From Oligoflexia bacterium (GTDB lineage: Bacteria > Bdellovibrionota_B > Oligoflexia > Oligoflexales > JAGOVF01): a DNA stretch of 43,563 bases. Made by a program: the position numbers and the translations under genes. Position 1 is the first letter of the stretch. Every line of letters starts with the position of its first letter. The notes beneath the pieces were generated by a model that was given only the letters and a program-made list of their open reading frames with translations, made no database searches and had not been told where the DNA came from. Shown here one piece after another: positions 13,497 through 38,183 of the stretch. The stretch covers positions 1 to 43,563 of the forward strand of contig JAUILP010000027.1 of assembly GCA_030432875.1 (NCBI GenBank). The letters are read 5' to 3'.

Positions 13497-13506
13497 TGCC
13501 TGAGTC

Positions 13507-13540
13507 GCAGTCTTCATGAAAAGGATGTCATGAAGACTGC
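13507..13540 (+). repeat. Strong hairpin between nosZ and the rest of the nos operon
   Basis: GCAGTCTTCATGA (13507-13519) is followed after 8 nt by its perfect complement TCATGAAGACTGC (13528-13540). No T-run follows, so it is more likely a 3' stabilising or partially terminating stem-loop that allows high nosZ message relative to the accessory genes. Confidence 0.7.
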
Positions 13541-13588
13541 TGCATATCTTGTGAAAGTATAAAAGAAACATAAAAACGGAGAAAAAAA

Positions 13589-14152: not shown

Positions 14153-14154
14153 CA

Positions 14155-14589: not shown

Positions 14590-14608
14590 CAAACTTTAAC
14601 GGTACTTC

Positions 14609-19398: not shown

Positions 19399-19819
19399 TT
19401 TTACTATGCGAGCTAACCGATTTCAGAACAACAGAGACCCGCGATGCGTTTTTTAGGAACTTCCTCAATATGCCAATTGTCAGACTTGGTTTTGATAAGT
19501 ATACCGGGCTTTTGGCGTCCTGAGATCGGGGAGCTGGCATATTATTGATCTGGATCTAGGGGCGTTTATTAAAAACGAAGTTGTTCTTGAAATAAAATCT
19601 TTCCTTAGCTGCATTGGGCTGGGCATCCTCGAATCAGTAAAACAAATTTTTGCGAAATCACGGATAATAGTCTACTTTTATAGTCATGTATTTATTCGGG
19701 CTTACCTTTCGAGCTCCGTAACAGATTTGGTAGAAAAAAAGGTTGTAATAAACGCTTGCCCTCACTTATTCCTTTGGGAAAGGGATGGCCTAACTAAATT
19801 TTTAGCGCTAAGGATTCAC
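19399..19819. other. Intergenic region before the arsenosugar operon
   Basis: No supported gene in 421 bp. A 34-codon frame starting ATG CGT TTT TTA GGA at 19444 has no ribosome binding site. The right part is AT-rich and probably holds the operon promoter. I see no clear ArsR-type operator. Confidence 0.5.
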
Positions 19820-20788: not shown

Positions 20789-20797
20789 GAGGAACTC

Positions 20798-22948: not shown

Positions 22949-22970
22949 GGTTAAAGTCTATGGTACTTCA

Positions 22971-23654
22971 ATGAAAATATCTGTGATCATTCCTACGCTC
23001 AATGAAGCCCAAATCCTTCATGGTTTATTTGACAGTTTGCGTGATTTGCCAGAGGCAGAATGTGAGATTATTTTTGTCGATGGCGGTAGTAAAGATGATT
23101 CAGTTTATTTGATTGAAACCGCCGGGTTCAAAATCCTTAAGACCGAGCATGGCCGCGCTCACCAAATGAATCTGGGTGCACAAAATGCTTCTGGTGATAC
23201 CCTGCTCTTCCTGCATGCCGATACCTATTTACCACCCTCGGCCTTAAATTTAGTGAGTCGTGCCCTGTCAGACAGTCGCTACTGCTGGGGACGTTTTGAT
23301 GTTCGTATTTCAAGCTCGCGGTTGGTTTTAAGTCTCGTCGCCTTTTTGATGAACTGGCGGTCGCGTTTAACTGGTATTGCGACAGGTGATCAGGCTATTT
23401 TTGTCAAACGCTCTACTTTCCATGCTATTGGCGGCTTTCCTCACCAACCTTTGATGGAAGATATAGAGCTTTCAAAACGCCTGCGGCAAATATCACGACC
23501 GGCATGCCTTACTCTAAAGGTGGGAACCTCTGGAAGACGGTGGGAAACAAAAGGTGTCTGGCGTACCGTACTGCTCATGTGGCGTTTACGTTTGGCATAC
23601 TGGCGCGGAGCGCCCGCACAAGAACTCGCAAGGATTTATTATGGCTCCAACTAG
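22971..23654 (+). CDS. TIGR04283 family arsenosugar-associated glycosyltransferase
   Basis: A GT-A fold family 2 glycosyltransferase of 227 residues. It starts SVIIPTLNEA, carries the nucleotide-sugar site FVDGGSKDDS and the metal-binding HADTYLPP, and the later TGIATGDQAIFVKRSTFHAIGGFP and LMEDIELSKRLR segments (the acceptor/catalytic ED motif). This arrangement matches TIGR04283, proteins found in arsenosugar clusters together with TIGR04282 and ArsS. Its acceptor is presumably a dimethylarsinoyl ribose intermediate, giving the glycosylated head group; no biochemical proof is known to me. The ribosome binding site is weak, but it follows the previous gene by 22 bp and overlaps the next by 14 bp, so translation is probably coupled. 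Confidence 0.92.
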   Translation: MKISVIIPTLNEAQILHGLFDSLRDLPEAECEIIFVDGGSKDDSVYLIETAGFKILKTEHGRAHQMNLGAQNASGDTLLFLHADTYLPPSALNLVSRALSDSRYCWGRFDVRISSSRLVLSLVAFLMNWRSRLTGIATGDQAIFVKRSTFHAIGGFPHQPLMEDIELSKRLRQISRPACLTLKVGTSGRRWETKGVWRTVLLMWRLRLAYWRGAPAQELARIYYGSN

Positions 23655-24270
23655 GACTCTGATATTCGCAAAAGCTCCTATTCCTGGATTTGCGAAATCC
23701 CGCCTGATCCCTGCCCTTGGTAAGGAAGGTGCGGCTACACTCGCAAGAAAATTGCTCTTAAATACGGTTAATATTGCCTTGGCTTCAGATTTGGGCTGCG
23801 TTGAGCTATGCGTTACCCCAGAAATATCTCACGAAGCGTGGCGATCACTTCCTATACCCGAAGCTGTTCGGTGGTCTGAGCAAGGCGAAGGCGATTTAGG
23901 AGTGCGCCTGTACCGTGCCGCAAAACGAATCGCGGCAGCTGGCGATGCCATGCTGATTATTGGCACGGATTGTCCAGCGCTTGGCGCTACTCAACTCCAG
24001 CAAGCTGCAGAGTCGCTGAGTCAAAAAAATGCCGTATTGACTCCTACGGCAGATGGTGGCTATGCGCTTATTGGCCTTAAGAAAGTTCATCCGTCTATTT
24101 TTGAAGGCATAGCCTGGAGTACGGATACAGTTGCGCAGGAGACTCTCGGTCGCATGCACTTTCTCAACTGGTCAGTGCAGACCTTCCCGGTATTGCATGA
24201 TGTCGATGTGCCTGGCGATTTGCAGTGGCTGCCAACGGGCTGGCCGGAGAAATCTTATGGTCAGACATAG
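23641..24270 (+). CDS. TIGR04282 family arsenosugar-associated glycosyltransferase (DUF2064)
   Basis: The 209-residue product is a DUF2064/TIGR04282 nucleotidyl- or glycosyltransferase-like protein: start LIFAKAPIPGFAKSRL with the KxRL motif, IIGTDCPALGATQLQQA (the nucleotide-sugar D-C-P motif) and PTADGGYALIGLKK. The cofactor signature GTDCP is diagnostic. TIGR04282 and TIGR04283 commonly sit side by side in arsenosugar biosynthesis loci. The ATG at 23641 lies inside the last codons of the preceding glycosyltransferase, overlapping it by 14 nt; a longer in-frame extension to 23554 would overlap far more and has no support. It may make the activated sugar used by the TIGR04283 enzyme; that division of labour is inference. 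Confidence 0.92.
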   Translation: MAPTRTLIFAKAPIPGFAKSRLIPALGKEGAATLARKLLLNTVNIALASDLGCVELCVTPEISHEAWRSLPIPEAVRWSEQGEGDLGVRLYRAAKRIAAAGDAMLIIGTDCPALGATQLQQAAESLSQKNAVLTPTADGGYALIGLKKVHPSIFEGIAWSTDTVAQETLGRMHFLNWSVQTFPVLHDVDVPGDLQWLPTGWPEKSYGQT

Positions 24271-24320: not shown

Positions 24321-25391
24321 ATGAAAACAATTGTTTTAGCGGGTAGCGGCCATGCCAATCTAGAAATCATCAAGTCCTTAACGCCCAGGTTATCGAAGTC
24401 TCATCATTTTATTTTAATTTCACCCGATCAGCACACGTTTTACTCCGGCATGATTCCACGTCTCATCATGGGAGATCTTAAAATATCCGACCTGACGATT
24501 GATTCAGCGCAATATGCCCAAAAAAAAGGGGTAGAATATATTGAGGATTCTGTTAGTGCTATTGATGTTCATAACAGCAATATAATCCTCGGCAGTGGGC
24601 AAAAAATCAAATTTGATATTTTATCTCTAAATATTGGTGCCAAACCCAGTTTGATTTCCTCCGATGATGATAAAAATACGGTATACCTCAAACCGCTAAA
24701 CCGTTTTGTAGAAAAGTGGTTAGAAATTGAGAGTCTTTTTGATTCTGGACGTGCTCCTCTTTTTGTTGTTGTCGGGGGAGGGGCTGCTGCCGTCGAGGTC
24801 GCATCAGCCCTTCAGGAGCGTCTAAATCGTAAACAAAATAACTTAGGCCGTGTCCAGCTGGTTGCAAGTAGTTCAAGGCTCTGCGTTAGCTACACAGAAC
24901 GAATTTCACGGGCAATTGCGCATGATCTAAAAAAACTTGGGGTTATTATTCAATTTAATGAAATGGTGACTCATATTAATTCTAATCACATAAATCTAGC
25001 GATCGGAAAAAAGCTAGAATTTGACAAAATATTTGTCGCAACGCCTAGCAGCGTTTCTCAGCTTGGCGAGTTTTTTTCTGTTGATGCGTTTCTTCAATTT
25101 GCCCCAAAGATATTTGCTTCTGGAGACTGTGCTACTCAGGTAAACGACCCACAACCGCCTAAGTCCGGAGTCATAGCTGTCCAACAAGGTCGCTATCTGG
25201 CAAAAGCAATAAGCGCCACGCTAAATAATCGCATCCCACCTGAATTTAAAGCGTCTAACCGCCAAATCAACATTCTGTTAACGGGTAAGAGATCAGGCAG
25301 GCTTGTATATGGAAATGCATCAGTGGAGGGTTATTTGCCATTAATTTTAAAAAAAATAATCGATAACAGGTATATAGAAGACTTTATTTGA
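24321..25391 (+). CDS. FAD-dependent pyridine nucleotide oxidoreductase (TIGR03169-like)
   Basis: The 356-residue protein has FAD-binding VLAGSGHANLEI, a DQHTFYSGMIPRLIMG segment, NAD-binding VVGGGAAAVEVASAL and the late SGDCATQ flavin motif. The GHANLEIIK and FYSGMIP patterns resemble the family fused N-terminally to SelD selenophosphate synthetases (TIGR03169), but here it stands alone and no selD follows. It has a type II NADH dehydrogenase-like fold, so it could oxidise NAD(P)H with a quinone or another acceptor. It is the fifth gene of the arsenosugar run, 50 bp after TIGR04282, with CAGGAA before the ATG. Whether it belongs to arsenic metabolism is unproven. The gene ends the operon; a 547-bp non-coding stretch follows. 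Confidence 0.83.
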   Translation: MKTIVLAGSGHANLEIIKSLTPRLSKSHHFILISPDQHTFYSGMIPRLIMGDLKISDLTIDSAQYAQKKGVEYIEDSVSAIDVHNSNIILGSGQKIKFDILSLNIGAKPSLISSDDDKNTVYLKPLNRFVEKWLEIESLFDSGRAPLFVVVGGGAAAVEVASALQERLNRKQNNLGRVQLVASSSRLCVSYTERISRAIAHDLKKLGVIIQFNEMVTHINSNHINLAIGKKLEFDKIFVATPSSVSQLGEFFSVDAFLQFAPKIFASGDCATQVNDPQPPKSGVIAVQQGRYLAKAISATLNNRIPPEFKASNRQINILLTGKRSGRLVYGNASVEGYLPLILKKIIDNRYIEDFI

Positions 25392-25938: not shown

Positions 25939-26865
25939 ATGAAAAAAGTCTTAATTATTGCCAATCACAAAGCCGGTAACGCTAAAATTTCTTGGTTAAA
26001 ACAGGAGTTTAAACGCAACCTATGGGGGTGGGATTTTGAGTGGCACGCGCCAAAATCTATAGATGATGCTTCTGAAATTATTAATGGGGCTGATCAAAGT
26101 ATCGTCGAAGCTGTGGTCATTGTTGGAGGAGATGGAACCCTCAATCGCTTACTACCTACAATTATTAAAAAACCAAATTTAAAAATTGGATTGTTCCCCG
26201 CAGGAACAGCTAATGATTTAGCAAGTGCTCATCAACTAAAGGATAGCTGTTTTGACCTGCAAATGATGATCGATAAAGAGCAACTCGTAAAAGTTGATTT
26301 GATCAAAGTGAATGAAAGCTACTTTTCTACTACAGGTGGGATTGGCATAGGGGCGCTTACCACCGCAAAAATTAATGATACCCGCAAAAAATCGCAGCTC
26401 ATCTGTTCTATGTTAAGATTGGTTGGAAGTCATAGTTATAGCCTTATTGCTGCTCAGTTAATCGCTCTTGGGTGGCATTACAATAATCGAGTAAAAATAG
26501 AAGCGGACGAAGGCGCTTTTGAGGGTAATACCGCTTCCGTTCTCGTTTGCAATCAGCGCTATTTAGGCCGCGGCCTTCTTATTGCCCCCAATGCCTGTGA
26601 TGGCGATGGGCTATTTGATGTGGTGGCGCTAAAAAGTTCCGGTCGCGTAAATATCCTGCAGAATTTGGTGAATGCAAAATATGGGGAAGGGCTTGCTCCG
26701 GATTTTTTACTAACAACAAAACGGTGTAGGATTTCATCTCTTGATCAAAAACAACTAATCTTCTTTGGCGATGGTGAAACCTTGCTCAAGGATGAAGTAT
26801 TTGATATATCACTATGTCCTGGGGCGCTGAGTCTTTATTCTCCAAAACTAAAGGTGGCGCAGTGA
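25939..26865 (+). CDS. Diacylglycerol kinase-family lipid kinase (YegS/DagK type)
   Basis: A soluble lipid kinase of the DAGK_cat family, 308 residues. The catalytic glycine-rich loop VVIVGGDGTLNRLLP (about 61-75) and the GLFPAGTANDLA motif (about 92-103) bind ATP and the lipid; the later FFGDGETLL motif carries the metal-binding aspartate. These enzymes phosphorylate a lipid hydroxyl such as diacylglycerol, ceramide, undecaprenol or a glycolipid; the substrate cannot be told from sequence. ATG 25939 is used; a TTG one codon earlier is possible. It opens a run of eight genes and its stop codon overlaps the GTG start of the next (GTGA). The context suggests that it makes or recycles a phosphorylated lipid intermediate for the pathway. 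Confidence 0.88.
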   Translation: MKKVLIIANHKAGNAKISWLKQEFKRNLWGWDFEWHAPKSIDDASEIINGADQSIVEAVVIVGGDGTLNRLLPTIIKKPNLKIGLFPAGTANDLASAHQLKDSCFDLQMMIDKEQLVKVDLIKVNESYFSTTGGIGIGALTTAKINDTRKKSQLICSMLRLVGSHSYSLIAAQLIALGWHYNNRVKIEADEGAFEGNTASVLVCNQRYLGRGLLIAPNACDGDGLFDVVALKSSGRVNILQNLVNAKYGEGLAPDFLLTTKRCRISSLDQKQLIFFGDGETLLKDEVFDISLCPGALSLYSPKLKVAQ

Positions 26866-27869
26866 ATATTCTTATAACCGGCGGGACCGGCTTTTTAGGA
26901 AAACATGTCGTAAGAGAGTGTCTCTCTCATCCTGGCGTGAAGAAAATTTTTATTTGTTCTAGACGGATAAAATCCCACCCCGATCCACGGATCAAAATGT
27001 TTAATGTTGATCTTACAGATCCGCTCCTTGCCGATAAATTACCCCTCAATGTAGATGTGGTAATTCATTTGGCTGGTCTCTACAATTTTTTTAACTCCAA
27101 ATCCGAAAACTACTTGTCAAATACTGTGGCAACTTTTAACTTGCTGGGTTACATATCAACACTGTCTCAGCCAGTTGAATTTATTCACTCTTCAACATAC
27201 GCTCTTATTACAGGAAATAATGCTCAGGGGTTAGAGCAAAAGATAGAGGGTGTTTTAGCTAAAGAATCATCCTATGTCTATACCAAAGCCTTAGCTGAAC
27301 AAATCGTACTTGCGGGTAAAAATTATAAAAAGATTATACTGAGGCTTGGCGTTTTGGTTGGTGACACTAAAAAGGGTGATATTGAAAAAATTGATGGACC
27401 CTATTATGTTTTAAAAGCCCTAGAGTTCTGGGCTAAATATGCGCCAAAATCTCTCCATAAAACCCTACCTTTGCCCATCGATCCGCGGCTCTATTTTCCT
27501 CTTGTCCCTGTGGATAGTGCTGCAAAAGTCGTTGTCTCTTGCCTGGGCAATAGCAAAATCCCCGATGAAGCAATTTTGGGGGTAGTCAATAGCCAAAGTA
27601 TTTCAGTCGGTGCGATGCTATCGTCAATTTTTGCTAACCTAAAAATCAATCCACAGCTCAAGGCTACGGCGTCTCCTCCACCGTGGTTTTTAAAGTTTCT
27701 TCATACAATAGAACTGATGCCAGAAGATCTATTTAGCTACCTTGTGCCAAAAAAACAGTTAGAAAACCCAAGTTTTTGCCGGTATTTTCCTAAAGCTATT
27801 CCGACATTTCCTCGGTATGAAAAAAACTTCTATTCTGGCTACAACAATTTTAGAGGAGACTTGAGTTGA
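26862..27869 (+). CDS. Extended SDR, fatty acyl-CoA reductase-like
   Basis: A 335-residue extended short-chain dehydrogenase. NILITGGTGFLGKHV is the NAD(P)-binding GxxGxxG motif, VIHLAGLYNF follows, the active-site serine is in FIHSSTYAL and the tyrosine-lysine pair in SYVYTKALAEQ (YxxxK). The LRLGVLVGDTKKGDIEKIDGPYYVL block resembles the thioester reductase/male-sterility (NAD_binding_4) branch that reduces acyl thioesters. No additional C-terminal sterile domain is present. It starts with GTG, with AAGGTGG just upstream; the stop codon of the kinase gene overlaps by 4 nt. A role as acyl or beta-keto reductase is inferred; substrate specificity is unknown. Confidence 0.83.
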   Translation: MNILITGGTGFLGKHVVRECLSHPGVKKIFICSRRIKSHPDPRIKMFNVDLTDPLLADKLPLNVDVVIHLAGLYNFFNSKSENYLSNTVATFNLLGYISTLSQPVEFIHSSTYALITGNNAQGLEQKIEGVLAKESSYVYTKALAEQIVLAGKNYKKIILRLGVLVGDTKKGDIEKIDGPYYVLKALEFWAKYAPKSLHKTLPLPIDPRLYFPLVPVDSAAKVVVSCLGNSKIPDEAILGVVNSQSISVGAMLSSIFANLKINPQLKATASPPPWFLKFLHTIELMPEDLFSYLVPKKQLENPSFCRYFPKAIPTFPRYEKNFYSGYNNFRGDLS

Positions 27870-29980
27870 CAGAAAAGAAACGTAAAACAAAAATAATTGT
27901 CGAAATCAATTTTTTCGAATGCAGCATTCCAAAGGAAGAAATATTTGTTTTTAGTGGCTATAAGTTTAAGTTAATCCGCTACCAAATAGGGTGGGATTTT
28001 GAAACTGCGAAACAAATCATCGCCAATCAAGATGGATATGCTGATGCTATTGTTTTTGTCGGACTGTTTGAACGAGCAGACGTTTTTGATCAGTACTTTG
28101 TTCACCAGCCAACGCACAAGCTCATCAATTTAGTAAGGGAATCAGAAGTATACACCGGATCAAAACTTCGTGAGTTTTATTCGCGCTGGACGATAAATAA
28201 TATCGCCAAAACGCAGCCGACCTTCTTTTTTGGTAGAAAAGCATTATTTCATACCGCCCTGGTTTCACCTATGCTCGCACCCTTGATTGAACATGGGGTC
28301 AAATTTCAGAGCGCCGATTTGATATCACTTTTAGGCATTCCTATCCCAGTCAATAGCCTTACACAGTTAAAGAACATGATTAGGACCTTTAAAGTTGCAC
28401 TGGGGAACCTTCCCTTCAATTTTTTGTCTCCAAGCCACAGTGAATCATCGCCAATTCGCAGCCGGGCGCAAATGGTACTTAAAAAACTTATTGCTAAAAA
28501 TGACATTTTTGTCACTTTTCGGGGGCTTTTAGATGATATCGGTAGTTTTGATGTTTTAAAGGGAAAAGTCCTTATCATAGATGCCCTTAGTGTTGATCAG
28601 AAGAGAAGGTTAAAGGATTTTGGGGTGTCGGATGTGGTTGAAATTGGCCCTAAGATAGCCGAGCTTGATAAAGTGGGCATCACTTCATTTGCTGTATTTG
28701 ATGCACTTTTTGATTTAGTCCGCCAAGCGGATGAACCCGATATGACCTACGATGAATACCTTCTAAAATATTTGGAAAATTCAACGGACATCCAGCTAGA
28801 AACTAAACGTAAATTTCTGCCGCCCCTGCGCTGTGCTTTTATTATTCATCCCTTGGAGCAGGACAATCTCTATCTTAGCAAATATTTGCGCTGGATCAAA
28901 TCTCTCCCTGATTTCGTTATTGACGGCATTGAAAATCAACTCGTTCATGCGCCATCGTTTCACTATGGTTCAATAACTGGTATAAAAAGTACCTTGACGG
29001 GTCAAGAGGTTATTTGTGAAGTCTATACTTTGTTAACGACACCAAAAATTATGCGCAAAATGAGTGAAGAAGCTTTATATAAAAAATTGGTCAAAACGAC
29101 CGAGCAAGCTCGAGAAAGAGGTTGTGTGATGCTGGGGCTTGGTGCGTACACTAAAGTTATTGGTGATGCTGGGATCACTGTTTCTAAAAGGTCACCAATT
29201 CCGGTAACCAATGGCAACTCGTACTCTACTGCTGCGACACTTTGGGCCGCCAAGGAAATGAGTGAAAGAATGGGTTTTTTATCTCCCATTTGTCTTGATT
29301 CGCCGCGCGTTAAAGGCAAAGCCATGGTGATCGGTGCCACGGGGGGAATTGGTCGCGTTTCCTCGCATTTACTGGCGTTAGTATTTGATGAACTCGTCCT
29401 CGTCGGGCGTCGCGCCGATAAATTATTAGAACTGAGAGATGAGATAAAAAAGGATTTTAAGGATATAAAGCTCAGTGTTTGTACTGATCCCAACATCCAC
29501 TTGCTTTCAACGGATTTGATTGTCACTGCGACCTCAAATGATTCGGGAAAAATATTGGATATTATGAAAGTTAAGCCTGGTGCTGTGATTTGTGATTGTT
29601 CTCGCCCCCTAGACATTGGGCCTGAAGACGCAAAAAAAAGACCCGATGTCATGATTATAGAAAGTGGGGAAATTGATTTGCCAGGAGATTTAAAATTTAC
29701 CTGTGATATTGGCCTTCCTTTTCCTTCGGTTTATGCCTGTCTTGCTGAAACCGTTTTACTGAGTTTAGAAAATCGCATCGAATCTTTTTCTTTAGGGCGT
29801 AGGCTTTCCCTTAAACAGGTAAAAGAAATTTACAAATTAGGTATTAAGCATGGCGCCAAATTATCGGCTATTCGTGGCCCTATGGGAACAATATCTAATG
29901 CTGACATTAAGCGGTGCCGAAATTTAGCGGCAAAGAAACTAAAAACGTGGCAACAAGACACGAAAGCGAAGGGCAAATGA
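27866..29980 (+). CDS. Large two-part protein with C-terminal acyl-ACP reductase-like domain
   Basis: The 704-residue product has two parts. Residues 1-325 match nothing I recognise, apart from a possible Rossmann-like LKGKVLIIDAL segment near 240. Residues 328-690 resemble cyanobacterial long-chain acyl-ACP reductase (AAR): AFIIHPLEQDNLYLSKYLRW aligns with its N-terminal lid, SITGIKSTLTGQEVICEVY follows, then GLGAYTKVIGDAG, the TNGNSYST motif and the nucleotide-binding loop at 488-496 (VIGATGGIG). Two cysteines, C576 and C578 in GAVICDCSRP, are the nearest candidates for the thioester-forming catalytic cysteine. It would reduce an acyl-ACP or acyl-CoA to an aldehyde, but this family also includes unexplored members. 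Start is TTG 27866 with AGAGGAG upstream; the previous stop overlaps by 4 nt. Its stop overlaps the next ATG (ATGA). Confidence 0.7.
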   Translation: MTEKKRKTKIIVEINFFECSIPKEEIFVFSGYKFKLIRYQIGWDFETAKQIIANQDGYADAIVFVGLFERADVFDQYFVHQPTHKLINLVRESEVYTGSKLREFYSRWTINNIAKTQPTFFFGRKALFHTALVSPMLAPLIEHGVKFQSADLISLLGIPIPVNSLTQLKNMIRTFKVALGNLPFNFLSPSHSESSPIRSRAQMVLKKLIAKNDIFVTFRGLLDDIGSFDVLKGKVLIIDALSVDQKRRLKDFGVSDVVEIGPKIAELDKVGITSFAVFDALFDLVRQADEPDMTYDEYLLKYLENSTDIQLETKRKFLPPLRCAFIIHPLEQDNLYLSKYLRWIKSLPDFVIDGIENQLVHAPSFHYGSITGIKSTLTGQEVICEVYTLLTTPKIMRKMSEEALYKKLVKTTEQARERGCVMLGLGAYTKVIGDAGITVSKRSPIPVTNGNSYSTAATLWAAKEMSERMGFLSPICLDSPRVKGKAMVIGATGGIGRVSSHLLALVFDELVLVGRRADKLLELRDEIKKDFKDIKLSVCTDPNIHLLSTDLIVTATSNDSGKILDIMKVKPGAVICDCSRPLDIGPEDAKKRPDVMIIESGEIDLPGDLKFTCDIGLPFPSVYACLAETVLLSLENRIESFSLGRRLSLKQVKEIYKLGIKHGAKLSAIRGPMGTISNADIKRCRNLAAKKLKTWQQDTKAKGK

Positions 29981-31065
29981 GTTTCTCCTATTTTTCAAAG
30001 TTAAACTATACTTGTGCCAACGAAGATACTTGGTTGGAATGGCATGTTCTACCAAACAAATCAGAGCATGTCGTGTCTGTATGCGGCAGTGGCTCGAGGG
30101 TTCTCCCTCTAATAGCGCGAAAGCCTAGCAACTTGACTATAGTGGATTTATCGGAAGAACAGCTTTTTTTAGCGCAGTTGCGCCTCGCCTTGATTAAGTC
30201 ATGCGAGCACCATCAATTTCTCGATTTTCTCGGTTATACTAGCGATGAAAACTCGGCAGAAAATAGAAAAAATATATTTAGCGCGTTAACATTATCAGAC
30301 CGATGTCGGAATTTTTTTAAAGCGCTTTTTAAGGAAATTGCTTGGGGCCCCATTCTTTACCTAGGGCGGTGGGAAAAAACCATAGCGAAGCTAGCGCGCA
30401 TAAACCAAAAATTTACCGGTGAAAAAGGTCGCGAGATTTTTGATTGTGAGAGTTTAGAAAGTCAGCGGCAGTTTTATAGTACCGAATTTCCCCTATTTCG
30501 CTGGCACCTGGTGCTGCGCCTCATGGGAAATGCCAACGTGTTTAACGCATTGCTCTATAAAGGCCACTTCCCTGTTAAAAACATCCCGGGCACTTTTTTT
30601 GAGTTTTTTAAAACTAATTTAGGCCGATTATTTCAACAGGACCTTGCCCGTCAGAATTTTTTCTTACAGCTTTTATTTTATGGAAAAATCGCGTTTCCCG
30701 AAGCTTTTATTGCTGAAGCTGATGCCGGAATATTTGCTGTCGTTAAATCTCATCTAAATGACCTCAAGGTAAATTATAAGCAAGGAAATATTGTTGATGA
30801 GGTAGCCCTAGAAAAGATGCCTATCGATTTTGTTTCGATTTCTGATGTGCCGTCTTATTTTAGCGGCAAAACTGAGCAAAATTTTATGCAACAGATGAAA
30901 GCTGGACTTCGCGTGGGTGGGAAAGTGCTCGTGCGAAGCTACCAGCACGTTCCCTGGCGTCCAGATTTAACGGACTTCACCATAATCACGGGTTTGTTCC
31001 GAGACGCCCTAGAGGCGGAGAAAACCCAAGTTTATCTTGTTGATATTTATCAGCGCGCAAAGTAA
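29977..31065 (+). CDS. DUF3419/BtaA-like S-adenosylmethionine 3-amino-3-carboxypropyl transferase
   Basis: The 362-residue product resembles DUF3419 proteins, whose founder BtaA transfers the 3-amino-3-carboxypropyl group of SAM to diacylglycerol, making the betaine-lipid precursor. Visible features are the starting NYTCANEDTWLEW block (the family's YNxxWED-like motif), the SAM-binding VVSVCGSGSRVLPL (residues 32-45) and the acidic ribose-binding TIVDLSEEQL (54-63). A long helical middle and a C-terminal VSISDVPSYF and GLRVGGKVLVRSYQHVP complete the fold. No BtaB-type N-methyltransferase lies nearby, so an un-methylated homoserine lipid or another acceptor is possible. Acceptor and product are inferred only. 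The ATG overlaps the preceding stop by 4 nt and its own stop overlaps the following ATG by 1 nt. Confidence 0.78.
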   Translation: MSFSYFSKLNYTCANEDTWLEWHVLPNKSEHVVSVCGSGSRVLPLIARKPSNLTIVDLSEEQLFLAQLRLALIKSCEHHQFLDFLGYTSDENSAENRKNIFSALTLSDRCRNFFKALFKEIAWGPILYLGRWEKTIAKLARINQKFTGEKGREIFDCESLESQRQFYSTEFPLFRWHLVLRLMGNANVFNALLYKGHFPVKNIPGTFFEFFKTNLGRLFQQDLARQNFFLQLLFYGKIAFPEAFIAEADAGIFAVVKSHLNDLKVNYKQGNIVDEVALEKMPIDFVSISDVPSYFSGKTEQNFMQQMKAGLRVGGKVLVRSYQHVPWRPDLTDFTIITGLFRDALEAEKTQVYLVDIYQRAK

Positions 31066-33326
31066 TGACCATGAATGCTATAAAACTCTTTACCGAACAA
31101 GCGATCCGCCATGCTTCCCGCACGGCGCTTTTTTTTCCAAACAAGGGATCTGTGAGTTTCTCTGCTGTTTTTCAGCAGGCGGCCTCCATTCAAAGGCAGC
31201 TAAAATCATCTGGCTTAAAGGCAGGCGATACCGTTCTTCTTTTTGAAGGCTTAAACGCCAAGCTCTATAGCGAAGTTATCGCCATGCTCGGTCTTGGCAT
31301 TACGGTAATGCTCGTGGAACCGTGGATGGCAGCAGGGCGGATTAAAAGCATTATTGACCTCATGAAGCCCAAGGCTTTTGTTACCTCAAAAATAGGCTAC
31401 CTATGGGGGCTACGTGTTCCAGCGATTAGGCAAATTTCGCGCTGGCTCATCCTTAATCCTCATATGCATGAAAAAGACTGCCTGGACCTCATCGTTGAGG
31501 AATGTGATCCCAGTGCTGGTGGTTTGGTCGGATTTACGTCAGGCACGACGGGTGAGCCTAAAGGTGTACCGCGAACCCAGGGGTACCTCATAAATCAGCA
31601 CCAGGTTTTCACCAAATCATTTAATTATAACGAAGATAGTGGGCCAGACCTCTGTATTTTTGCTAACTTTGCTTTATCAAATTTGGCTTGCGGTCGCACA
31701 AGCATAATCATTCCCTCAAGCTGGGCAGTAAAAGATCTCAAATCGCTCAATGATCTTCCCAAAGATTTGCAACCACGAAGCATTACGAGTAATCCCGCTT
31801 TTTTTCAAAAACTTTTGCGTTACACTAATCTCAAATCATTTGAGCATATTCATTTGGGCGGCGCGTTGGTTGATTGCGGTGTTTTTGAACATGGTTTTAA
31901 GCAAAATCCCAATGCACACTGGGCGATAGTCTATGGGAGCACAGAAGCAGAGCCTATTAGTCTGGGGGAGGCGCGTGAGGCGGTAGAATTATCAAGGCAA
32001 AATCGCTACTGGCAAACACTTTGCCTGGGCAAGCCTATCGCAGAAATCACGGCAAAGTTAGAAGAAAATACAGCCTGGATTTCAGGTCCCCATGTGTGTC
32101 AGCGTTATATTGGCTGTGAAGCAGAAAATCTCAAAAATAAACGTGAAGATGAATCAGGTGTGATTTGGCATAAGATGGGCGACCGGATCAAAGAAAAAGA
32201 TGGGTATTGGTGGTATGCAGGCCGGGAACAACAACCTTTAAACGAGTTTGAACTTGAGCAGCAAATTTACTGGTACCTGAAATCAAGCGCTGGGTTTATC
32301 TCATCTGCGCCTGATAAGAAACTTCGCTTTTATGGTGAAGAAAATGTGCTTTCTCAATATGATCTACAAAAAGAATTTCCACAAATAAGGTCAATCAGGT
32401 CGGCACGCATCATTCGAGATTCTCGCCATCGTTCGCGCATCGATAGACAAAAAAGTAAGGAGACTATCCCCGTGATGAGACAAGACTTTTGGACTTATAT
32501 GAAGGAACGGTTTCCCGTTGTGAGCTATTTTTTGCTCAGCGGTGGTATGGCTATATCAAGCACTGCGCTTGTTGGCGTTAGCTTTAATCTTAGCGAAGTC
32601 CTGATAGGTTTAGTCGGACTCATCATGTTTTTTATGACGTTAAGAGCGATGGATGAAGTTAAAGACTATGATAAGGATATTCTTGCGCATCCCCTTCGCC
32701 CCTTGCCCAGAGGTTTGCTGACGGTAAATGCGGCAAAAAAAATCATATGGAGCTTTTTTTCTTCGATGATGCTTTTCGATATCCTGCTGTTTGCTAGTGG
32801 AAAAAGCGATGCGGGAGTGATTTATTTGGCAATTATTATCTATCTGTATTTTATGTACGTAGAATTTTTTGTTGGGGAAAAACTCTCTAAAATGCCTTTT
32901 CTCTATGCCTTTAGCCATCAGGCGATCCTCGTACTCCTCACGCTATTTCCTGCGGTACTTTTGAACGCTGGTTCCTCAAGTTATCTTCCCGTACTCTATT
33001 ACGGTATGGGTGTTTTTGGGGCTTTTTTCTCTTATGAAATATCCAGGAAACTTGATCCCAGTGCTCACCCAGTTCTTAGTACCTACCGTGTAATATATGG
33101 CGTAAAAATCTGTTTTTTGGCAGTGTTTTTGCTTTCCCTAATTTCCTTTATGGGATTTTACCCGCTTAATTTGGCTTTAGTTTCTTTGGTCAGTTCCAGT
33201 TTACTGTTACTGAGTTATGTTTTGGTTATAAGGCAAGACAGTTTCTATAAATGGGGTGAGCTTTTTGGGACCATCAATTTACTTTGTCATATATTTGCCC
33301 CAGCTATTTACATTTATTTTTCGTAA
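31065..33326 (+). CDS. Adenylate-forming enzyme fused to a UbiA-family prenyltransferase
   Basis: A 753-residue fusion. Residues 1-470 form an ANL-superfamily adenylating domain: P-loop VGFTSGTTGEPKGV (155-168), YGSTEAEPIS (A5) and WHKMGDRIKEKDGYWWYAGR (A7, D373). The closest look is OleC-like (beta-lactone synthetase/long-chain acyl ligase): a terminal RHRSRIDR block stands where OleC has RHNAKI. Arg458 takes the place of the usual A10 lysine. Residues 480-753 are a polytopic UbiA domain with about eight membrane helices; the first Asp-rich motif is RAMDEVKDYDKD (D530, D534, D538) followed by RPLPRG, while the second motif position reads YEISRKLD (E658). Acyl or aryl acid activation joined to prenyl transfer on the membrane is inferred; the fusion is unusual. 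The ATG overlaps the previous stop (TAATG). Confidence 0.82.
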   Translation: MTMNAIKLFTEQAIRHASRTALFFPNKGSVSFSAVFQQAASIQRQLKSSGLKAGDTVLLFEGLNAKLYSEVIAMLGLGITVMLVEPWMAAGRIKSIIDLMKPKAFVTSKIGYLWGLRVPAIRQISRWLILNPHMHEKDCLDLIVEECDPSAGGLVGFTSGTTGEPKGVPRTQGYLINQHQVFTKSFNYNEDSGPDLCIFANFALSNLACGRTSIIIPSSWAVKDLKSLNDLPKDLQPRSITSNPAFFQKLLRYTNLKSFEHIHLGGALVDCGVFEHGFKQNPNAHWAIVYGSTEAEPISLGEAREAVELSRQNRYWQTLCLGKPIAEITAKLEENTAWISGPHVCQRYIGCEAENLKNKREDESGVIWHKMGDRIKEKDGYWWYAGREQQPLNEFELEQQIYWYLKSSAGFISSAPDKKLRFYGEENVLSQYDLQKEFPQIRSIRSARIIRDSRHRSRIDRQKSKETIPVMRQDFWTYMKERFPVVSYFLLSGGMAISSTALVGVSFNLSEVLIGLVGLIMFFMTLRAMDEVKDYDKDILAHPLRPLPRGLLTVNAAKKIIWSFFSSMMLFDILLFASGKSDAGVIYLAIIIYLYFMYVEFFVGEKLSKMPFLYAFSHQAILVLLTLFPAVLLNAGSSSYLPVLYYGMGVFGAFFSYEISRKLDPSAHPVLSTYRVIYGVKICFLAVFLLSLISFMGFYPLNLALVSLVSSSLLLLSYVLVIRQDSFYKWGELFGTINLLCHIFAPAIYIYFS

Positions 33327-33334
33327 GGGATCCT

Positions 33335-36085
33335 ATGAATTATTTACTGAGTGTTACTGACCACCTCGACAAGTTTACTGAGCAAGGAGGTGGCAAAGCA
33401 AAAAACTTAGCCCGACTTGCACAGTATGGATTTAATGTTCCTCCGTGGTTTTGCATAGGTGCCTTGGCCTATAACGACTTTATTCGAGAAAATAACCTTG
33501 AAATGGCTATTGCTGCCAATTTAAACGGCGTTAGAAGAGATCAGCTGGCTCATGTTTCTCAGGTGATAGAAAAGTTGATAGTCGAGGCGTCATTACCTAA
33601 AAAGCTATCTGATCAAATCGAGCAAAAATTGCTTGAACTTCGATGGATGAGCGTTCCTCTCGCCGTCAGATCCAGTGGTCTTGATGAAGACTCAGATGAT
33701 CATTCCTTTGCGGGTCAATTTTCATCTTTTCTTTTCCAAACAGGTATGACGCAAATTTCATCGGCTCTTAAACTCTGCTGGGCTTCGGCATACAGTGAGA
33801 GGGCTTTGAGTTACCGCCTTGAAAGAGGTCTCCCTGTCACCCATTTAACGATGGGGGTGCTTATACAAAAAATGCTTAGTCCTGAAGTTGCTGGTGTGGC
33901 CTTTACGCGGCATCCCATCAAAATGAGTGACCGCGATCAAATACTGGTAAGCTCTGTCTATGGTGTTGGTGAGGGGCTTGTTGACGGCTCTCTTGATGCT
34001 GATCATTTTGAGATTAGTCGAGAAAGCCGGAAAATAGAGGCAAAAATTGTCTTCAAAAAATCCGAAATCAAATCCCTGGCAAGCAGCGGAACTCAGGTTG
34101 TGGATGTTGCTGAAGAACGCCAAAATAAGGCGTCTATTTCTGACGAGCAAGCTCTAGAAATATTGGATTTGTGTATTCGCTTAGAAGATAAGTTTATCCT
34201 TCCTCAAGACTGCGAGTGGGTATATGAAAATGGCCAGTTATTTTTGGTGCAAACAAGGCCGATTACCAATCTACCCCCTGCAAATTTTTATGACAAAAAA
34301 ATCATCGGTTCTCATGCAATTTTGTGGGACAACAGTAACATTATCGAGAGCTATTCTGGCGTAACCTCACCTTTGACCTTTGCCTTTGCCAGTCGCGCCT
34401 ATAATTTAGTGTATATTCAATTTTGCCAGGTCATGGGAGTGCCACAGACACTCATTGATAGTAGGGCGTCGATGTTTCGCAATATGCTAGGCCTGGTTCG
34501 AGGACGCATATATTACAACTTAATCAATTGGTACCAGCTCGTTCTCATGCTCCCAGGATCGAGCAATAACAAGGGCTTTATGGAAACCATGATGGGCGTA
34601 AAGCAACAAATTAAACCTGATTTTCAGGACATATTTGCCTTTGTCAAGGATGCTCCCCAGTATTCTCTTGTTGATCGTATAAAGCTATTTTTAGCGACCC
34701 TGTACCGCTTTATTCGCATCGATAAAATTGTCGGTGACTTTAATCGGGAATTCAAAAAAATCTATGAAGGGGCTTTTTTGAAGGACTATAATACATTTTC
34801 TCTTAGTGAACTCGCTGATGAATATGAGTATCTCGATAAAGAAGTTTTGCCGCGCTGGACGGCACCTATTATCAATGACTATTTATGCATGCTGTTTTTT
34901 GGCTTGCTCAAAAAACTCGTAGAAAATTGGCTTGGTGAAAAGGGCGAGCATTCAACTTTTCAAAATGATCTACTTTGCGGGGAAGGGGGACTGGAAAGCG
35001 CTGAACCCACGAAAAGGCTGATGCTTATTGCCAAAGGGATTGACCAAGGGCCCCAAGAAATTCGGGACTGGTTTTTAAGTGGGAGTTCCGAAGAGATTTG
35101 GCAGGCCATAAAAACGGAAGCAAAACATAAAGAAATATTTGCCAAAATTAATCTGTTTTTACATGATTTTGGGTTTCGCTGCGTTAATGAACTCAAACTC
35201 GAAGAGCCTGACTTACACGATAATCCCGCTTACGTGGTGAATTTTATTGCCGGATATATTAGGACAAAATCTTACAATATCGAAGAAATGGAAAAACGTG
35301 AATCCGCCATAAGAGCTAAGGCCGAAACCTTAGTGAGATCAAAAATATCTGGCCTTAAGCGATGGGTATTTTTTTGGATTCTTAAACAAGCACGTAAAGC
35401 CGTCAAAAATCGCGAGAATTTGCGTTTTGCCCGCACCAAGATATTTGGCATTTGCCGCAATCTATTTCGGGCTATGGGATTGAAGCTTGTGGAGTTAAAT
35501 TTGCTGGGTGATAAGCGCGATATTTTTTTCTTAAGCACCGAGGAAATCATGGCATTTATTGAGGGGCGTTCCTTGTCACTCAAGTTAAAAGAAATTATTG
35601 CCATTCGCAAAAAGGAATATGAACACTACAAAAAATCTCTAACACCCCCAGACCGGTTTATCAGTCTTGGTGCCTCTGGGGTAAACTTTCAGTATCCTGC
35701 CATACTTGATGATGCTGATCTCCTGCGCTCACAGTTGGTGAGCGACGATCCGAACTGCCTTTTTGGTACACCCTGTTGCCCAGGAATCGTTAAGGGAATA
35801 GTTCGCGTTGCGACGAGTATCGAAGAAGCTCAGGGTCTTAACGGCGAGATTCTTGTGACTAGTCGCACCGATCCGGGTTGGGTTCCGCTCTATCCTGCGT
35901 GCTCTGGCTTACTGGTCGAGCGTGGCAGCTTACTCTCTCACTCGGCTGTTGTGGCTCGCGAGCTTGGTTTACCGACAATCGTCGGGATTTCTGGCGGGCT
36001 CATGAGCCGACTTAAAACGGGGCAGATGATCGAAATGGATGCGGGCAAGGGAGAAGTGCGCATTATCACAGAGGAGTCTAAATGA
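33335..36085 (+). CDS. PEP synthase/rifampin phosphotransferase-like dikinase
   Basis: The 916-residue protein has an N-terminal PPDK_N ATP-grasp domain (about 1-320: GGKAKNLARL, PLAVRSSGLDEDS with R112, SFAGQFSSFL and CEWVYENGQLFLVQTRP) and, at the C-terminus, the phosphohistidine swivel domain with H869 in GSLLSHSAVVARELG. The long middle region lacks the PEP-binding TIM barrel of true PEP synthase. This is the organisation of rifampin phosphotransferase, which transfers the beta-phosphate of ATP to a small-molecule hydroxyl with release of AMP and Pi. In this operon the acceptor is more likely a pathway alcohol (prenyl or lipid) than an antibiotic, but resistance remains possible. ATG 33335 has AAGGGAT upstream; it lies 8 nt after the fusion gene. 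Confidence 0.85.
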   Translation: MNYLLSVTDHLDKFTEQGGGKAKNLARLAQYGFNVPPWFCIGALAYNDFIRENNLEMAIAANLNGVRRDQLAHVSQVIEKLIVEASLPKKLSDQIEQKLLELRWMSVPLAVRSSGLDEDSDDHSFAGQFSSFLFQTGMTQISSALKLCWASAYSERALSYRLERGLPVTHLTMGVLIQKMLSPEVAGVAFTRHPIKMSDRDQILVSSVYGVGEGLVDGSLDADHFEISRESRKIEAKIVFKKSEIKSLASSGTQVVDVAEERQNKASISDEQALEILDLCIRLEDKFILPQDCEWVYENGQLFLVQTRPITNLPPANFYDKKIIGSHAILWDNSNIIESYSGVTSPLTFAFASRAYNLVYIQFCQVMGVPQTLIDSRASMFRNMLGLVRGRIYYNLINWYQLVLMLPGSSNNKGFMETMMGVKQQIKPDFQDIFAFVKDAPQYSLVDRIKLFLATLYRFIRIDKIVGDFNREFKKIYEGAFLKDYNTFSLSELADEYEYLDKEVLPRWTAPIINDYLCMLFFGLLKKLVENWLGEKGEHSTFQNDLLCGEGGLESAEPTKRLMLIAKGIDQGPQEIRDWFLSGSSEEIWQAIKTEAKHKEIFAKINLFLHDFGFRCVNELKLEEPDLHDNPAYVVNFIAGYIRTKSYNIEEMEKRESAIRAKAETLVRSKISGLKRWVFFWILKQARKAVKNRENLRFARTKIFGICRNLFRAMGLKLVELNLLGDKRDIFFLSTEEIMAFIEGRSLSLKLKEIIAIRKKEYEHYKKSLTPPDRFISLGASGVNFQYPAILDDADLLRSQLVSDDPNCLFGTPCCPGIVKGIVRVATSIEEAQGLNGEILVTSRTDPGWVPLYPACSGLLVERGSLLSHSAVVARELGLPTIVGISGGLMSRLKTGQMIEMDAGKGEVRIITEESK

Positions 36086-37110
36086 TGCTTAAACTGATTA
36101 GCAGAAGTCATGAAACTGATGGTGAGCTATTCGTAAAAGAATTTTCAGAGCTCCCGAGTCGCGGTCTTGTGAAGTCGCCCGGATTAGCAGTGCCTCCTGC
36201 TCAGTACTGGCAAAAACTCATGGGAGTTTTACCTAAGGAAATCTGCGAGTATTGGTTGGTGGTGGATGAGGGAAAAACGCTTGGACGCATCGGAGCCAAC
36301 CTACTCCCCAGCTATCCTCACTTAGGTGCTATTGGATTTTTTACCGTAGATTTGGTGGATTCGCGGAAAAAAGAAATATCTGCGATGCTTCTCGACGCAA
36401 CAACTATCTGGTTAAAAGCAAAAGGTTGTGAATCGGCGACGGGTCCCATCAATATTAACACCTGGTTTCCCTACCGATTCCGCTTGGATCAGGAGCCTCA
36501 GCATTTCGTTTGGGAACCCAGTAATTCTCCCGAATACCCAAGTTTGTGGCTTGAAAATGGCTTTAAGAACGATAAAAACTATTACTGCGTTGGAAACGAT
36601 AACTTCAAAGGCGTCACCGCCAAAACAGAAAAAAGTTATAAAAAAGCGACTGAACTTGGTTTTTCCTTTAGGAAATTTGATAAAGAGAATTTTTTTGAAA
36701 AAGACCTGCCCAAGCTTCATGAACTCACGTTAAAAAGTTATACCAAAAATTATCTCTTTGAACCGATCTCATTCGAGGGTTTTAAACAGCTCTACGTACC
36801 GGTAATGCATCATTTTGATTGGTCCGAATCGTATTTTGTTCAAAAGGGGACCCAGGAGGTCGGCTTTCTCTTTTGTTTTGTAGATCAAGAATATTTTGTT
36901 TATAAAACTGCGGGGGTCCTGCCTGATTTTCAAGGTAAAGGTCTATATAGCGCTTTGGTCCATAAAGCGACAATTGAAGCAAGTAGGAAATATCATCTCG
37001 ATAAGTTTATTTCGGCTCCGTTTTTAGAAGATAATCCAAGCCAAACGCCGAGTAAAAAAACAGCGGTGCTTTGGACGCATCATTATGTTCTGATGTCTAA
37101 ATCATTATAA
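36082..37110 (+). CDS. GNAT-family acyltransferase
   Basis: The 342-residue protein shows the acetyl-CoA binding motif of GNAT enzymes near the C-terminus: PDFQGKGLYSALVHKAT (Q284, the R/QxxGxG/A pyrophosphate loop). An N-terminal half (about 1-150) looks like a degenerate second GNAT fold with LGRIGANLLPSYPHLGAIGFFTVDL and ATGPININTWFPYRF, a pattern known from some two-domain GNATs that modify small molecules. The acyl acceptor cannot be inferred. The ATG overlaps the previous stop (ATGA); a second ATG follows at 36085. Within the operon it probably acylates an amino group, for example that created by the BtaA-like enzyme, which is a hypothesis. Confidence 0.75.
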   Translation: MMLKLISRSHETDGELFVKEFSELPSRGLVKSPGLAVPPAQYWQKLMGVLPKEICEYWLVVDEGKTLGRIGANLLPSYPHLGAIGFFTVDLVDSRKKEISAMLLDATTIWLKAKGCESATGPININTWFPYRFRLDQEPQHFVWEPSNSPEYPSLWLENGFKNDKNYYCVGNDNFKGVTAKTEKSYKKATELGFSFRKFDKENFFEKDLPKLHELTLKSYTKNYLFEPISFEGFKQLYVPVMHHFDWSESYFVQKGTQEVGFLFCFVDQEYFVYKTAGVLPDFQGKGLYSALVHKATIEASRKYHLDKFISAPFLEDNPSQTPSKKTAVLWTHHYVLMSKSL

Positions 37111-37226
37111 TTGGTAGGCTACACACGAGACCTGAGTTGCTTTTTTAACGCATATTTGTTACTTATATGAAGCATGCTTCCGAACCGCATGGTTTAGTCA
37201 ACCTTTTTGTCTAAAGGAGAAACATT

Positions 37227-38183
37227 ATGACTAATGATTCCTTGGCGGTGAACCATCCTGTTGAAAACAATCAAATCAACGTAATTCAAGGTGTTTGGCG
37301 ATTGGCTGACCCCAAAATCACTTTAGCATCGATGTCAGCTTTATTGGTTGGTGCGAGTTCATCTTTTTATTTTGGAGCCATTCATTGGGGGTGGTTGATT
37401 ACTACCGTTATGGGCATTTTTTTTATCGAAGTAGCAAAAAATGCTTCTGGTGAAGTTTATGACTGGGACAGTGGAACTGATCAAGCCATCAAAGATAATG
37501 AACGAACTCCATTTTCTGGAGGTAAACGAGTCCTTGTGGATGGCCTGATGACACGGAGCCAAACCTTGCTCTGTGCCGGGATTTTTTATGCTCTAGGGAT
37601 TCTTATGGGCTTGATCATAGCCTTTTTAAGGGAACCTGCGGTAATATGGATCGGTCTAGCTGGCGTTGGTTTGGCCTTTTTCTATCATGCTCCCCCATTG
37701 GCGCTTTCTTACCGCGGTCTCGGTGAACTAGCCGTTTCTATTGCCTATGGGCCGCTGATCGTCATCGGTGCCTTTTTGGTGCAAACGGGTAGATATGAGA
37801 TGAGCGTTTTATGGATTTCTTTGCCCATTGGTCTAGCTATTGGGTCTTTTTTATGGATAAATGAATTTCCTGATAGCCGTGCGGACGCTTTATCTCATAA
37901 AAATACCCTTGTCGTTAAGCTTGGTCGTCATAGAGCTGCTCGAATCTTCGCGTTGATTGTCGGTGTGGTATATTTGAGCGTCGGAATTTTACCATGGATG
38001 GGCTTGCCGTTTTTGGTTTGGCTTGGCTTTGCCGGTTTTTTACCTGCCGCTGTCGCGGTGTTAAGAACATATCGAGATCCCCAAAACAATATGATCTTAC
38101 CTAAGGTGCAGGCTTTGACTCTGTTATCTTTTGTCTTGCTTTCCGTGGGCGTTAGCTTGGGGTTGATTCTCAGTCGGATTTGA
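37227..38183 (+). CDS. UbiA-family prenyltransferase, MenA-like
   Basis: An integral membrane prenyltransferase of 318 residues with about eight helices. The first Asp-rich motif is NASGEVYDWDSGTD (N72, E76, D79, D85) and the second NEFPDSRADALSHKNTLVVKLGR (about 210-232), which closely resembles the MenA (1,4-dihydroxy-2-naphthoate) branch. It would move a polyprenyl or other isoprenoid chain onto an aromatic or hydroxyl acceptor in the inner membrane. The conserved first aspartate of the NDxxD pattern is replaced by E76. AAAGGAG precedes the ATG. The gap to the GNAT gene is 116 bp, so it may be on the same transcript with its own control. A true menaquinone MenA function is the main alternative. 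Confidence 0.87.
   Translation: MTNDSLAVNHPVENNQINVIQGVWRLADPKITLASMSALLVGASSSFYFGAIHWGWLITTVMGIFFIEVAKNASGEVYDWDSGTDQAIKDNERTPFSGGKRVLVDGLMTRSQTLLCAGIFYALGILMGLIIAFLREPAVIWIGLAGVGLAFFYHAPPLALSYRGLGELAVSIAYGPLIVIGAFLVQTGRYEMSVLWISLPIGLAIGSFLWINEFPDSRADALSHKNTLVVKLGRHRAARIFALIVGVVYLSVGILPWMGLPFLVWLGFAGFLPAAVAVLRTYRDPQNNMILPKVQALTLLSFVLLSVGVSLGLILSRI

Follow-up and report, generated by a model that had tools for sequence, protein, structure and literature searches.

A row of eight genes occupies positions 25939..38183 of contig JAUILP010000027.1 (assembly GCA_030432875.1) of an Oligoflexia bacterium, the genome of which (G000) amounts to 4.0 Mb in 191 contigs. The whole stretch analysed, positions 1 to 43,563 of the forward strand, is referred to below as the window; G and L numbers are our own handles for genomes and loci. 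All eight genes share the plus strand (Table 1), and re-reading of their boundaries from the sequence revealed no internal stop in any of them. Five junctions are overlaps of 4, 4, 4, 1 and 4 nucleotides (nt), and gaps of 8 and 116 nt separate the ANL-UbiA gene from the PEPS-like gene and the GNAT gene from the last one, so that the genes, their order and every junction listed in a first-pass annotation of this DNA were reproduced exactly. Seven of the eight genes recur together across related clusters, and we consider them here as a candidate pathway for an unusual lipid.

Table 1. Genes of the operon, their family matches and the parts assigned to them (aa, amino acids; AAR, acyl-ACP reductase; SAM, S-adenosylmethionine; SDR, short-chain dehydrogenase/reductase).
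Gene product	Coordinates	Strand	Start	Family match	Part and predicted role
YegS/DAGK-type lipid kinase, 308 aa	25939..26865	+	ATG	DAGK_cat PF00781, 69.5 bits; YegS_C, 59.7 bits	supply module; predicted alcohol kinase
SDR of NAD_binding_4 (thioester-reductase / fatty acyl reductase) type, 335 aa	26862..27869	+	GTG	PF07993, 86.5 bits	supply module; predicted to reduce aldehyde to alcohol
Fused AAR-like acyl-thioester reductase, 704 aa	27866..29980	+	TTG
DUF3419 protein, 362 aa	29977..31065	+	ATG	PF11899, 118.9 bits	core; predicted SAM 3-amino-3-carboxypropyl transferase
Fusion of ANL (~1-465) and unusual UbiA, "UbiA1" (~471-753)	31065..33326	+	ATG	AMP-binding, 87.2 bits	core
PEPS-like phosphohistidine dikinase, 916 aa	33335..36085	+	ATG	PPDK_N, 253.9 bits; PEP-utilizers, 67.4 bits	core
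GNAT-type acyltransferase, 342 aa	36082..37110	+	ATG	PF00583, 31.4 bits	cap slot
MenA-like UbiA prenyltransferase, UbiA2, 318 aa	37227..38183	+	ATG	UbiA, 103.1 bits	probably outside the pathway

DUF3419 is the family of the BtaA domain, and in the window protein this domain spans residues 5-334 of 362 (cut-off 28.2 bits). The ANL half of the next protein is nearest to PRK09274 among the NCBIfam models (152.9 bits of 478). ANL acid-CoA ligases have a C-terminal catalytic Lys; the corresponding motif in the window protein reads RHRSRIDR, with Arg in the place of the usual Lys. The UbiA half obtained no Pfam call at E<=0.001, its match to PRK13592 (39.5 bits) lies below cut-off, and its homologues define the family that we call UbiA1. 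UbiA prenyltransferases carry two Asp-rich motifs. In UbiA1 the first of them is present as DExKDxxxD in 12/12 aligned rows, and an equally invariant ExxRK...Y (12/12) places ExxRK where the second Asp-rich motif would be, a position assigned by eye without an aligned structure; hence we call the protein UbiA-like. ANL and UbiA1 are fused in some loci and encoded by separate genes in many.

The PEPS-like protein combines an ATP-grasp domain (PPDK_N, residues 19-314), a large middle region and a C-terminal His swivel (PEP-utilizers, 836-906) with His869. The Pfam scan of the protein found no match to PF02896, which we take to be the C-terminal phosphoenolpyruvate (PEP)/pyruvate-binding barrel, and PEP synthase was rejected as its identity on account of this missing barrel. 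Its architecture resembles that of rifampin phosphotransferase (RPH): the family profile matches RPH structure 5fbs at 438 bits in two stretches (1-318 and 561-912), with the region between them unaligned. The His swivel motif is retained in 47/49 family members longer than 800 aa, some clusters being counted twice. Scores against the NCBIfam models for RedH (350.2 bits of 1350), PigC (331 of 1300) and rifampin phosphotransferase (334) all stay below cut-off.

No Pfam family exceeded its cut-off in the 704-aa reductase, and its NCBIfam matches, PigE (141 bits) and AcACP_reductase (54.8 bits), are below cut-off as well; judged by a score of 54.8 against the required 449.7, the protein is AAR-like and not a cyanobacterial AAR. 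Solved AAR and PigE structures match it. Residues 316-704 form an AAR/PigE-N-type reductase with the motif GATGGIG at 490-496, Cys625 occupies the place of the AAR catalytic Cys294, and ACLAE aligns with ACFAE of 6jzq; the protein has both the AAR fold and its cofactor-binding motif. Residues 1-297 constitute an AAR-like fold without GATGGIG. This N-terminal half yielded no Pfam match at E<=0.05 and was placed as an AAR-like half when folded alone. Carbamoyltransferases ranked top for it in Foldseek with low TM-scores of ~0.3; the AAR assignment, first in the aligned list, was preferred. The two halves of the fusion are found as adjacent separate genes in two distant genomes (L016/L035 and L017/L036).

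To follow the operon across genomes, named genomes were scanned with an AAR alignment and the best 80 loci were kept, so that counts among these are conditional on AAR. Loci with DAGK or DUF3419 near the AAR gene were classed as cluster-type (57/80; many are cut by contig ends). Among these 57, DAGK is present in 55, SDR in 54, DUF3419 in 46, and ANL, UbiA1 and PEPS in 34 each. The genomes nearest by AAR have titles mostly from Bdellovibrionota lineages among the matches listed. The arrangement is beyond chance, as it recurs across families and orders at ~33-49% AAR identity. The remaining 23 loci, in which neither DAGK nor DUF3419 was seen, comprise by title 14 from Chloroflexota, one from Blastocatellia, one from Nitrosovibrio and seven from Bdellovibrionota. 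The Chloroflexota-titled loci, Herpetosiphon among them (L097, L100, L102, L104, L106-L109, L111-L114, L117, L119), contain a fused AAR, which perhaps has a second role there. In L077, L079, L091, L092 and L098, AAR and ANL-UbiA are separated by a metallo-beta-lactamase-fold (MBL) gene and a cytochrome P450, and an AurF-type gene adjoins the cluster in L159.

Genome-level counts, which are not conditional on AAR, cover up to 58 genomes of the window's class (56 in some searches), many of them fragmented. UbiA1 was found in 19/58 genomes of the class and in 22/383 overall, the three outside the class being G176, G322 and G380. Co-occurrence was followed genome-wide within the class for UbiA1, DUF3419 and the PEPS-like family. 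DUF3419 is present in 19/19 UbiA1 genomes, as well as in G018 and, weaker still, in G038 and G041, and a PEPS-like gene at E<=1e-100 accompanies UbiA1 in 19/19 genomes and occurs additionally in G039. The first-pass annotation had postulated a single pathway and had named co-occurrence of the DUF3419, ANL-UbiA and PEPS-like genes in related genomes as its check; run genome-wide for DUF3419, UbiA1 and the PEPS-like family, the check was passed, supporting a conserved lipid-like pathway around these genes.

The same annotation had counted the last gene as a pathway member, and here it was not borne out. UbiA2 was found in none of the 57 cluster-type loci from the best 80 AAR loci and was therefore rejected as part of the pathway; it is probably a quinone gene. 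Its best MenA model gives 115.4 bits of 277 and another 62.5 of 102.15, both below cut-off. The other two Pfam-called UbiA genes in the window genome encode heme O synthase and a PRK08238 protein.

Around the core, the 19 genomes each have one of three supply modules: a near-full-length AAR (10 genomes), an HMG-CoA reductase fused to an APH-type kinase (HMGR-APH; six genomes) or a polyprenol-kinase-like gene (three genomes), without overlap and with no slot empty. Within genus g9 all three types occur, in two genomes each. The HMGR-APH gene lies close to the cluster in the fetched stretches. HMG-CoA reductase matches are present in 55/56 genomes, with two to four of them in each of the six genomes that carry the fusion, and HMGR-APH is an extra copy; its identity as the sole, housekeeping reductase was rejected on these further matches, which are fragments in G034 and G054. 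One genome, G008, possesses HMGR-APH plus a distant AAR-like frame (57 bits).

The third module type was first seen in an operon of Roseinatronobacter (see below), as a 439-aa membrane protein, and in core genome G053. Pfam, NCBIfam and solved structures gave no name to the 439-aa protein; among its relatives, the names dolichol kinase, phytol kinase and diacylglycerol/polyprenol kinase occur, beside many entries without a name. In G053, a related 223-aa gene (26.8 bits, 31% identity) is located between ANL-UbiA and PEPS. A search of 56 genomes with both queries returned only G053, G015 (96 bits) and G019 (94 bits), the latter two being the sole core genomes in which the supply slot had still been empty; as G053 is itself part of the query alignment, the independent finds are limited to G015 and G019. 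In each of these two genomes, the kinase-like gene stands tail to tail with a cluster-type SDR of 405 aa (107.5 bits, G015) or 389 aa (107.9 bits, G019), on a contig other than that of the core. A chance figure of 3e-6 calculated at this point ignores relatedness and was not used. All three modules may be read as making or taking a lipid alcohol and phosphorylating it. AAR, SDR and DAGK represent one of three interchangeable modules and are best read as converting a thioester to an alcohol and then to an alcohol phosphate, in preference to the reduction of an aryl acid, which the first-pass annotation had offered as an alternative to an acyl acid.

The second exchangeable slot is that of the cap enzyme. 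Of the 28 loci that combine ANL with UbiA1 and PEPS, a formyltransferase alone is present in 15 and a GNAT alone in 12, whereas none has both and one has neither; a formyltransferase appears on another stretch (L163) of the contig of this single capless locus. Acylation by GNAT, as proposed earlier, would have formylation as its alternative in this slot. The cap formyltransferase belongs to PF00551 and keeps NxHxxxLP in 24/24 rows. In 18 further stretches around UbiA1, several of them short, GNAT was found in seven, formyltransferase in one, both in none and neither in ten. The ANL motif follows the type of cap: Lys is found in 20/21 formyl-type rows (17/18 without repeats, as L022/L048, L028/L065 and L029/L067 are pairs from the same contigs) and Arg in 18/20 GNAT-type rows where the motif was found, the motif being missing in 4/54 rows. 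This covariation suggests that ANL and the cap enzyme likely act on the same intermediate. The sole amine supplied by the cluster itself would be the SAM-derived one. Formyl-type ANL proteins (e.g., in L078, from Bacteriovorax sp. BSW11_IV) have an N-terminal extension of ~260 residues that looks alpha/beta-hydrolase-like by eye, and L041 encodes such a hydrolase as a separate gene.

Genes of export type are part of some clusters: either an ABC ATPase paired with an FtsX/MacB-type permease, together with a LolA-like carrier (PF17131) and a protein of outer-membrane type, or else an MMPL pump. As the synteny label "ABC" takes any ABC ATPase, FtsX was counted instead: it is present in 16/57 cluster-type loci, and the LolA-like carrier in 12/57; the label "OMP411" for the outer-membrane-type protein is a loose one. 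In G048 and G050, ABC/FtsX genes accompany ANL-UbiA-PEPS, and the LolA-like and outer-membrane-type genes accompany AAR-DUF3419, a split that ties the two halves of the cluster together. The window genome has the whole export cassette elsewhere (G000:C57). Close FtsX homologs (E<=1e-120) occur in 9/56 genomes, all nine of them core genomes, three of which (G000, G048, G054) contributed rows to the query; eight more genomes match more weakly at E<=1e-40. The export-type genes thus described are probable members of the system.

The gene set is not confined to the class. In one Riflebacteria genome (L146), UbiA1, PEPS, MMPL, DUF3419 and a LolA-like gene follow one another in a row. The plasmid of the alphaproteobacterium Roseinatronobacter sp. 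S2 (L189) has an operon of UbiA, PEPS, DUF3419, polyprenol kinase, GNAT and AMP-binding genes. Against the cluster profiles, these score 176 (UbiA1), 700 (PEPS), 145 (DUF3419), 113 (GNAT) and 312 bits (ANL), with no match for the kinase, and the DUF3419 protein reaches 189 bits against Pfam DUF3419. DUF3419 genes were also seen in other plasmid settings. On Deefgea piscis plasmid NZ_CP054144.1 (L180, 18583-32670), the neighbours of the DUF3419 gene include an iron-containing redox enzyme and SAM decarboxylase, with SbnA/SbnB ~10 kb off, and the locus looks like a metallophore-type cluster using DUF3419. On Rhizobium sp. plasmid pMK-2 (L190, 7829-14167), the order is KASIII, SDR, MBL, "CoF synthetase", DUF3419 and a hypothetical gene.

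We give about even chances to the reading that these genes form a modular set in which the core and a cap enzyme join a reduced, phosphorylated lipid alcohol to an SAM-derived amino-acid head, with the outer membrane as the predicted destination of the product. In the window operon, AAR would reduce a fatty acyl thioester, possibly a 2-enoyl one, to the aldehyde, SDR would convert this to the alcohol and DAGK would phosphorylate it; elsewhere the same job would fall to HMGR-APH or to the polyprenol-kinase-like gene, in some cases alongside an SDR of thioester-reductase type. The dikinase would then move a phosphate from ATP to the hydrophobic intermediate, perhaps giving a diphosphate. DUF3419 would attach the SAM-derived 3-amino-3-carboxypropyl group, GNAT or formyltransferase would cap the amine of this head, and ANL would activate its carboxylate. 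UbiA1 would couple the lipid chain with the head, and ABC/FtsX, the LolA-like carrier and the outer-membrane-type protein, or elsewhere the MMPL pump, would carry the product outward. A homoserine-type group and an isoprenoid, as proposed in the first-pass annotation, may be present in the product. The weakest steps are the dikinase as a second kinase and the donor of UbiA1.

Several known systems resemble parts of this scheme. Phytol salvage to tocopherol (VTE5, VTE6, VTE2) proceeds from a lipid alcohol through a kinase and a second phosphorylation to a UbiA transfer. The proposed logic is the same, and in the Roseinatronobacter operon, which also contains UbiA, the neighbouring kinase gene is related to proteins that bear the names phytol kinase or dolichol kinase; however, the cluster kinase is of YegS, APH or polyprenol type depending on the lineage, the second phosphorylation would be performed by the dikinase and the acceptor would be an amino-acid head. 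The window AAR shares fold, cofactor motif and catalytic Cys with cyanobacterial AAR and the N-terminal domain of PigE, but it is fused to the AAR-like half lacking GATGGIG and stands with SDR and a lipid kinase, not with an aminotransferase half. RPH and the PigC/RedH dikinases also have ATP-grasp at one end and the His swivel at the other, and likewise no PEP-binding barrel was found in the PEPS-like protein; the latter is distinguished as a family of its own located next to UbiA and DUF3419, about equally similar to all three. As in the BtaA/BtaB pathway, transfer of the 3-amino-3-carboxypropyl group from SAM to a lipid is the predicted role of the DUF3419 protein, whereas no BtaB was among the operon proteins scanned, and GNAT or formyltransferase, ANL, UbiA, the dikinase and the supply reductase and kinase are there instead. 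The order of the chemical steps was drawn from work on BtaA (PMC3972451) and rifampin phosphotransferase (PMC4844700), together with general background on phytol salvage, the PigE enal and the UbiA and ANL motifs.

A number of observations weigh against a single modular pathway of this kind. The 23 AAR loci with neither DAGK nor DUF3419 are one; others are the weak or partial DUF3419 matches of two core genomes (73 bits in G006, 53 bits in G016), the presence of AAR and DAGK without the core in G056, of AAR and DUF3419 without a UbiA1 match in G018, whose contig ends in ANL, and of the PEPS-like gene alone in G039. The Riflebacteria stretch showed no recognisable ANL or cap gene, and the closest DUF3419 of the plasmid collection, that of Deefgea (39% identity to the window protein), adjoins SAM decarboxylase and siderophore-type, not lipid, genes. 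As to the slots, the role of HMGR-APH could be just to provide mevalonate for isoprenoid donors and not to copy AAR, the exchange of GNAT and formyltransferase needs just two switches on a quick PEPS tree (48 rows, 39 labelled), and ten of the 18 further UbiA1 stretches, several of them cut short, show no cap gene, among them L157, in which ANL, UbiA1 and PEPS are nevertheless present. At the level of chemistry, the Arg at the usual Lys place means that the window ANL may not be an ordinary acid-CoA ligase, and the apparent lack of the usual second Asp-rich motif in UbiA1 raises the prospect of a donor other than a prenyl or alkyl diphosphate.

A more specific version of the modular pathway, which we consider rather unlikely, is a "pseudo-prenyl" one, a new kind of route to membrane lipids: AAR and SDR would turn fatty acyl (2-enoyl) thioesters into an allylic fatty alcohol, the YegS-type kinase and the dikinase would add two phosphates, and UbiA would join the result to an aminocarboxypropyl head bearing an N-acyl or N-formyl group. 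As the supply slot can also take isoprenoid modules (HMG-CoA reductase or phytol-kinase-like), the same head would be placed on a fatty tail in some bacteria and an isoprenoid one in others, and a dedicated FtsX/LolA-like system would bring the lipid to the outer membrane. A fatty pseudo-prenyl donor, if true, would be categorically new.

Among readings of a different kind, an unlikely one is a prodiginine- or siderophore-like product, for which the PigE-N-like AAR would provide an aldehyde, a PigC/RedH-like dikinase would condense it with an amine and FtsX would export it. For the AAR, the PigE score (133.6 bits) indeed exceeds that for cyanobacterial AAR (54.8 bits), the PEPS-like protein scores with both RedH and PigC, P450 and MBL genes occur in some clusters and an AurF-type gene beside one, and DUF3419 is found near SbnA/SbnB in Deefgea. 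Yet the RedH and PigC scores are far under their cut-offs and that of rifampin phosphotransferase is equally high, no aminotransferase family was found in the Pfam scan of the operon, the dikinase is retained in genomes without a full AAR, and both UbiA and the LolA-like carriers speak for a lipid.

Quite improbable in our estimate is a variant of homoserine or betaine lipid synthesis, in which DUF3419 would have the BtaA activity towards diacylglycerol, with the remaining genes decorating or regulating that lipid. The shared domain family, to which the Roseinatronobacter protein also belongs by its Pfam score, and the use of diacylglycerol-like lipids by DAGK-family kinases agree with it. According to a study of BtaA (PMC3972451), BtaA moves the 3-amino-3-carboxypropyl group onto diacylglycerol, and BtaA and BtaB alone are enough for the betaine lipid, which would leave UbiA, the dikinase and ANL unexplained. 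Furthermore, no BtaB-type methyltransferase was found among the nine scanned proteins, the rest of the genome not having been searched, and an acyl or formyl cap would prevent trimethylation.

We regard as very unlikely a prenylated aromatic, quinone-like product, with ANL activating an aryl acid, UbiA1 and UbiA2 prenylating it and the lipid genes supplying just the prenyl donor. UbiA proteins usually prenylate aromatics, a MenA-like UbiA follows the operon, and HMGR and polyprenol kinase are isoprenoid-type enzymes; against this, UbiA2 is absent from the related clusters, the Pfam scan of the operon found no family of aromatic-acid synthesis, and DUF3419 and the acyl/formyl exchange are left unexplained. 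That the genes are chance neighbours with unrelated housekeeping functions is hardly credible: every enzyme family is known singly, and the AAR-DUF3419 and ANL-UbiA-PEPS parts lie at separate loci in G048, G050 and G052, but the 19/19 co-occurrence, the four-base overlaps and the recurrence of this core as an operon in a different phylum speak against it.

With unrelated enzymes in each, the two exchangeable slots offer a rare genomic handle on the product, which should contain a part obtained by thioester reduction and alcohol phosphorylation and a group open to acylation or formylation. The proposed UbiA step, if true, would imply a new class of donors for UbiA enzymes and a phosphohistidine dikinase in lipid activation. 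The set is also widely spread, from a phylum that includes predators to Riflebacteria and an alphaproteobacterial plasmid. The first-pass annotation knew of no described cluster of this composition, and our literature search, which covered titles and abstract starts and few subscription journals, found no description either; within that coverage, the gene set, the co-occurrence and the two slots have no description, the enzyme families themselves being known.

Signals of transcription within the operon were of little help, with 23 promoter-like sites against a shuffled mean of 25.6 and 21 terminator-like sites against 14.1 (sd 4.1). Upstream of the operon (window 19727-24270), we recognized by eye a radical SAM gene, a fused TVP38/mercuric-reductase-like gene and two glycosyltransferase-type genes in a row, followed at 24321-25391 by a 356-aa pyridine nucleotide-disulfide oxidoreductase of "Nterm_to_SelD" type (204.5 bits, below the cut-off of 310) without a SelD part. 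Further upstream, the region 11541-17374 of the window looks, on inspection by eye, like a gene cluster for nitrous oxide reductase (nos).

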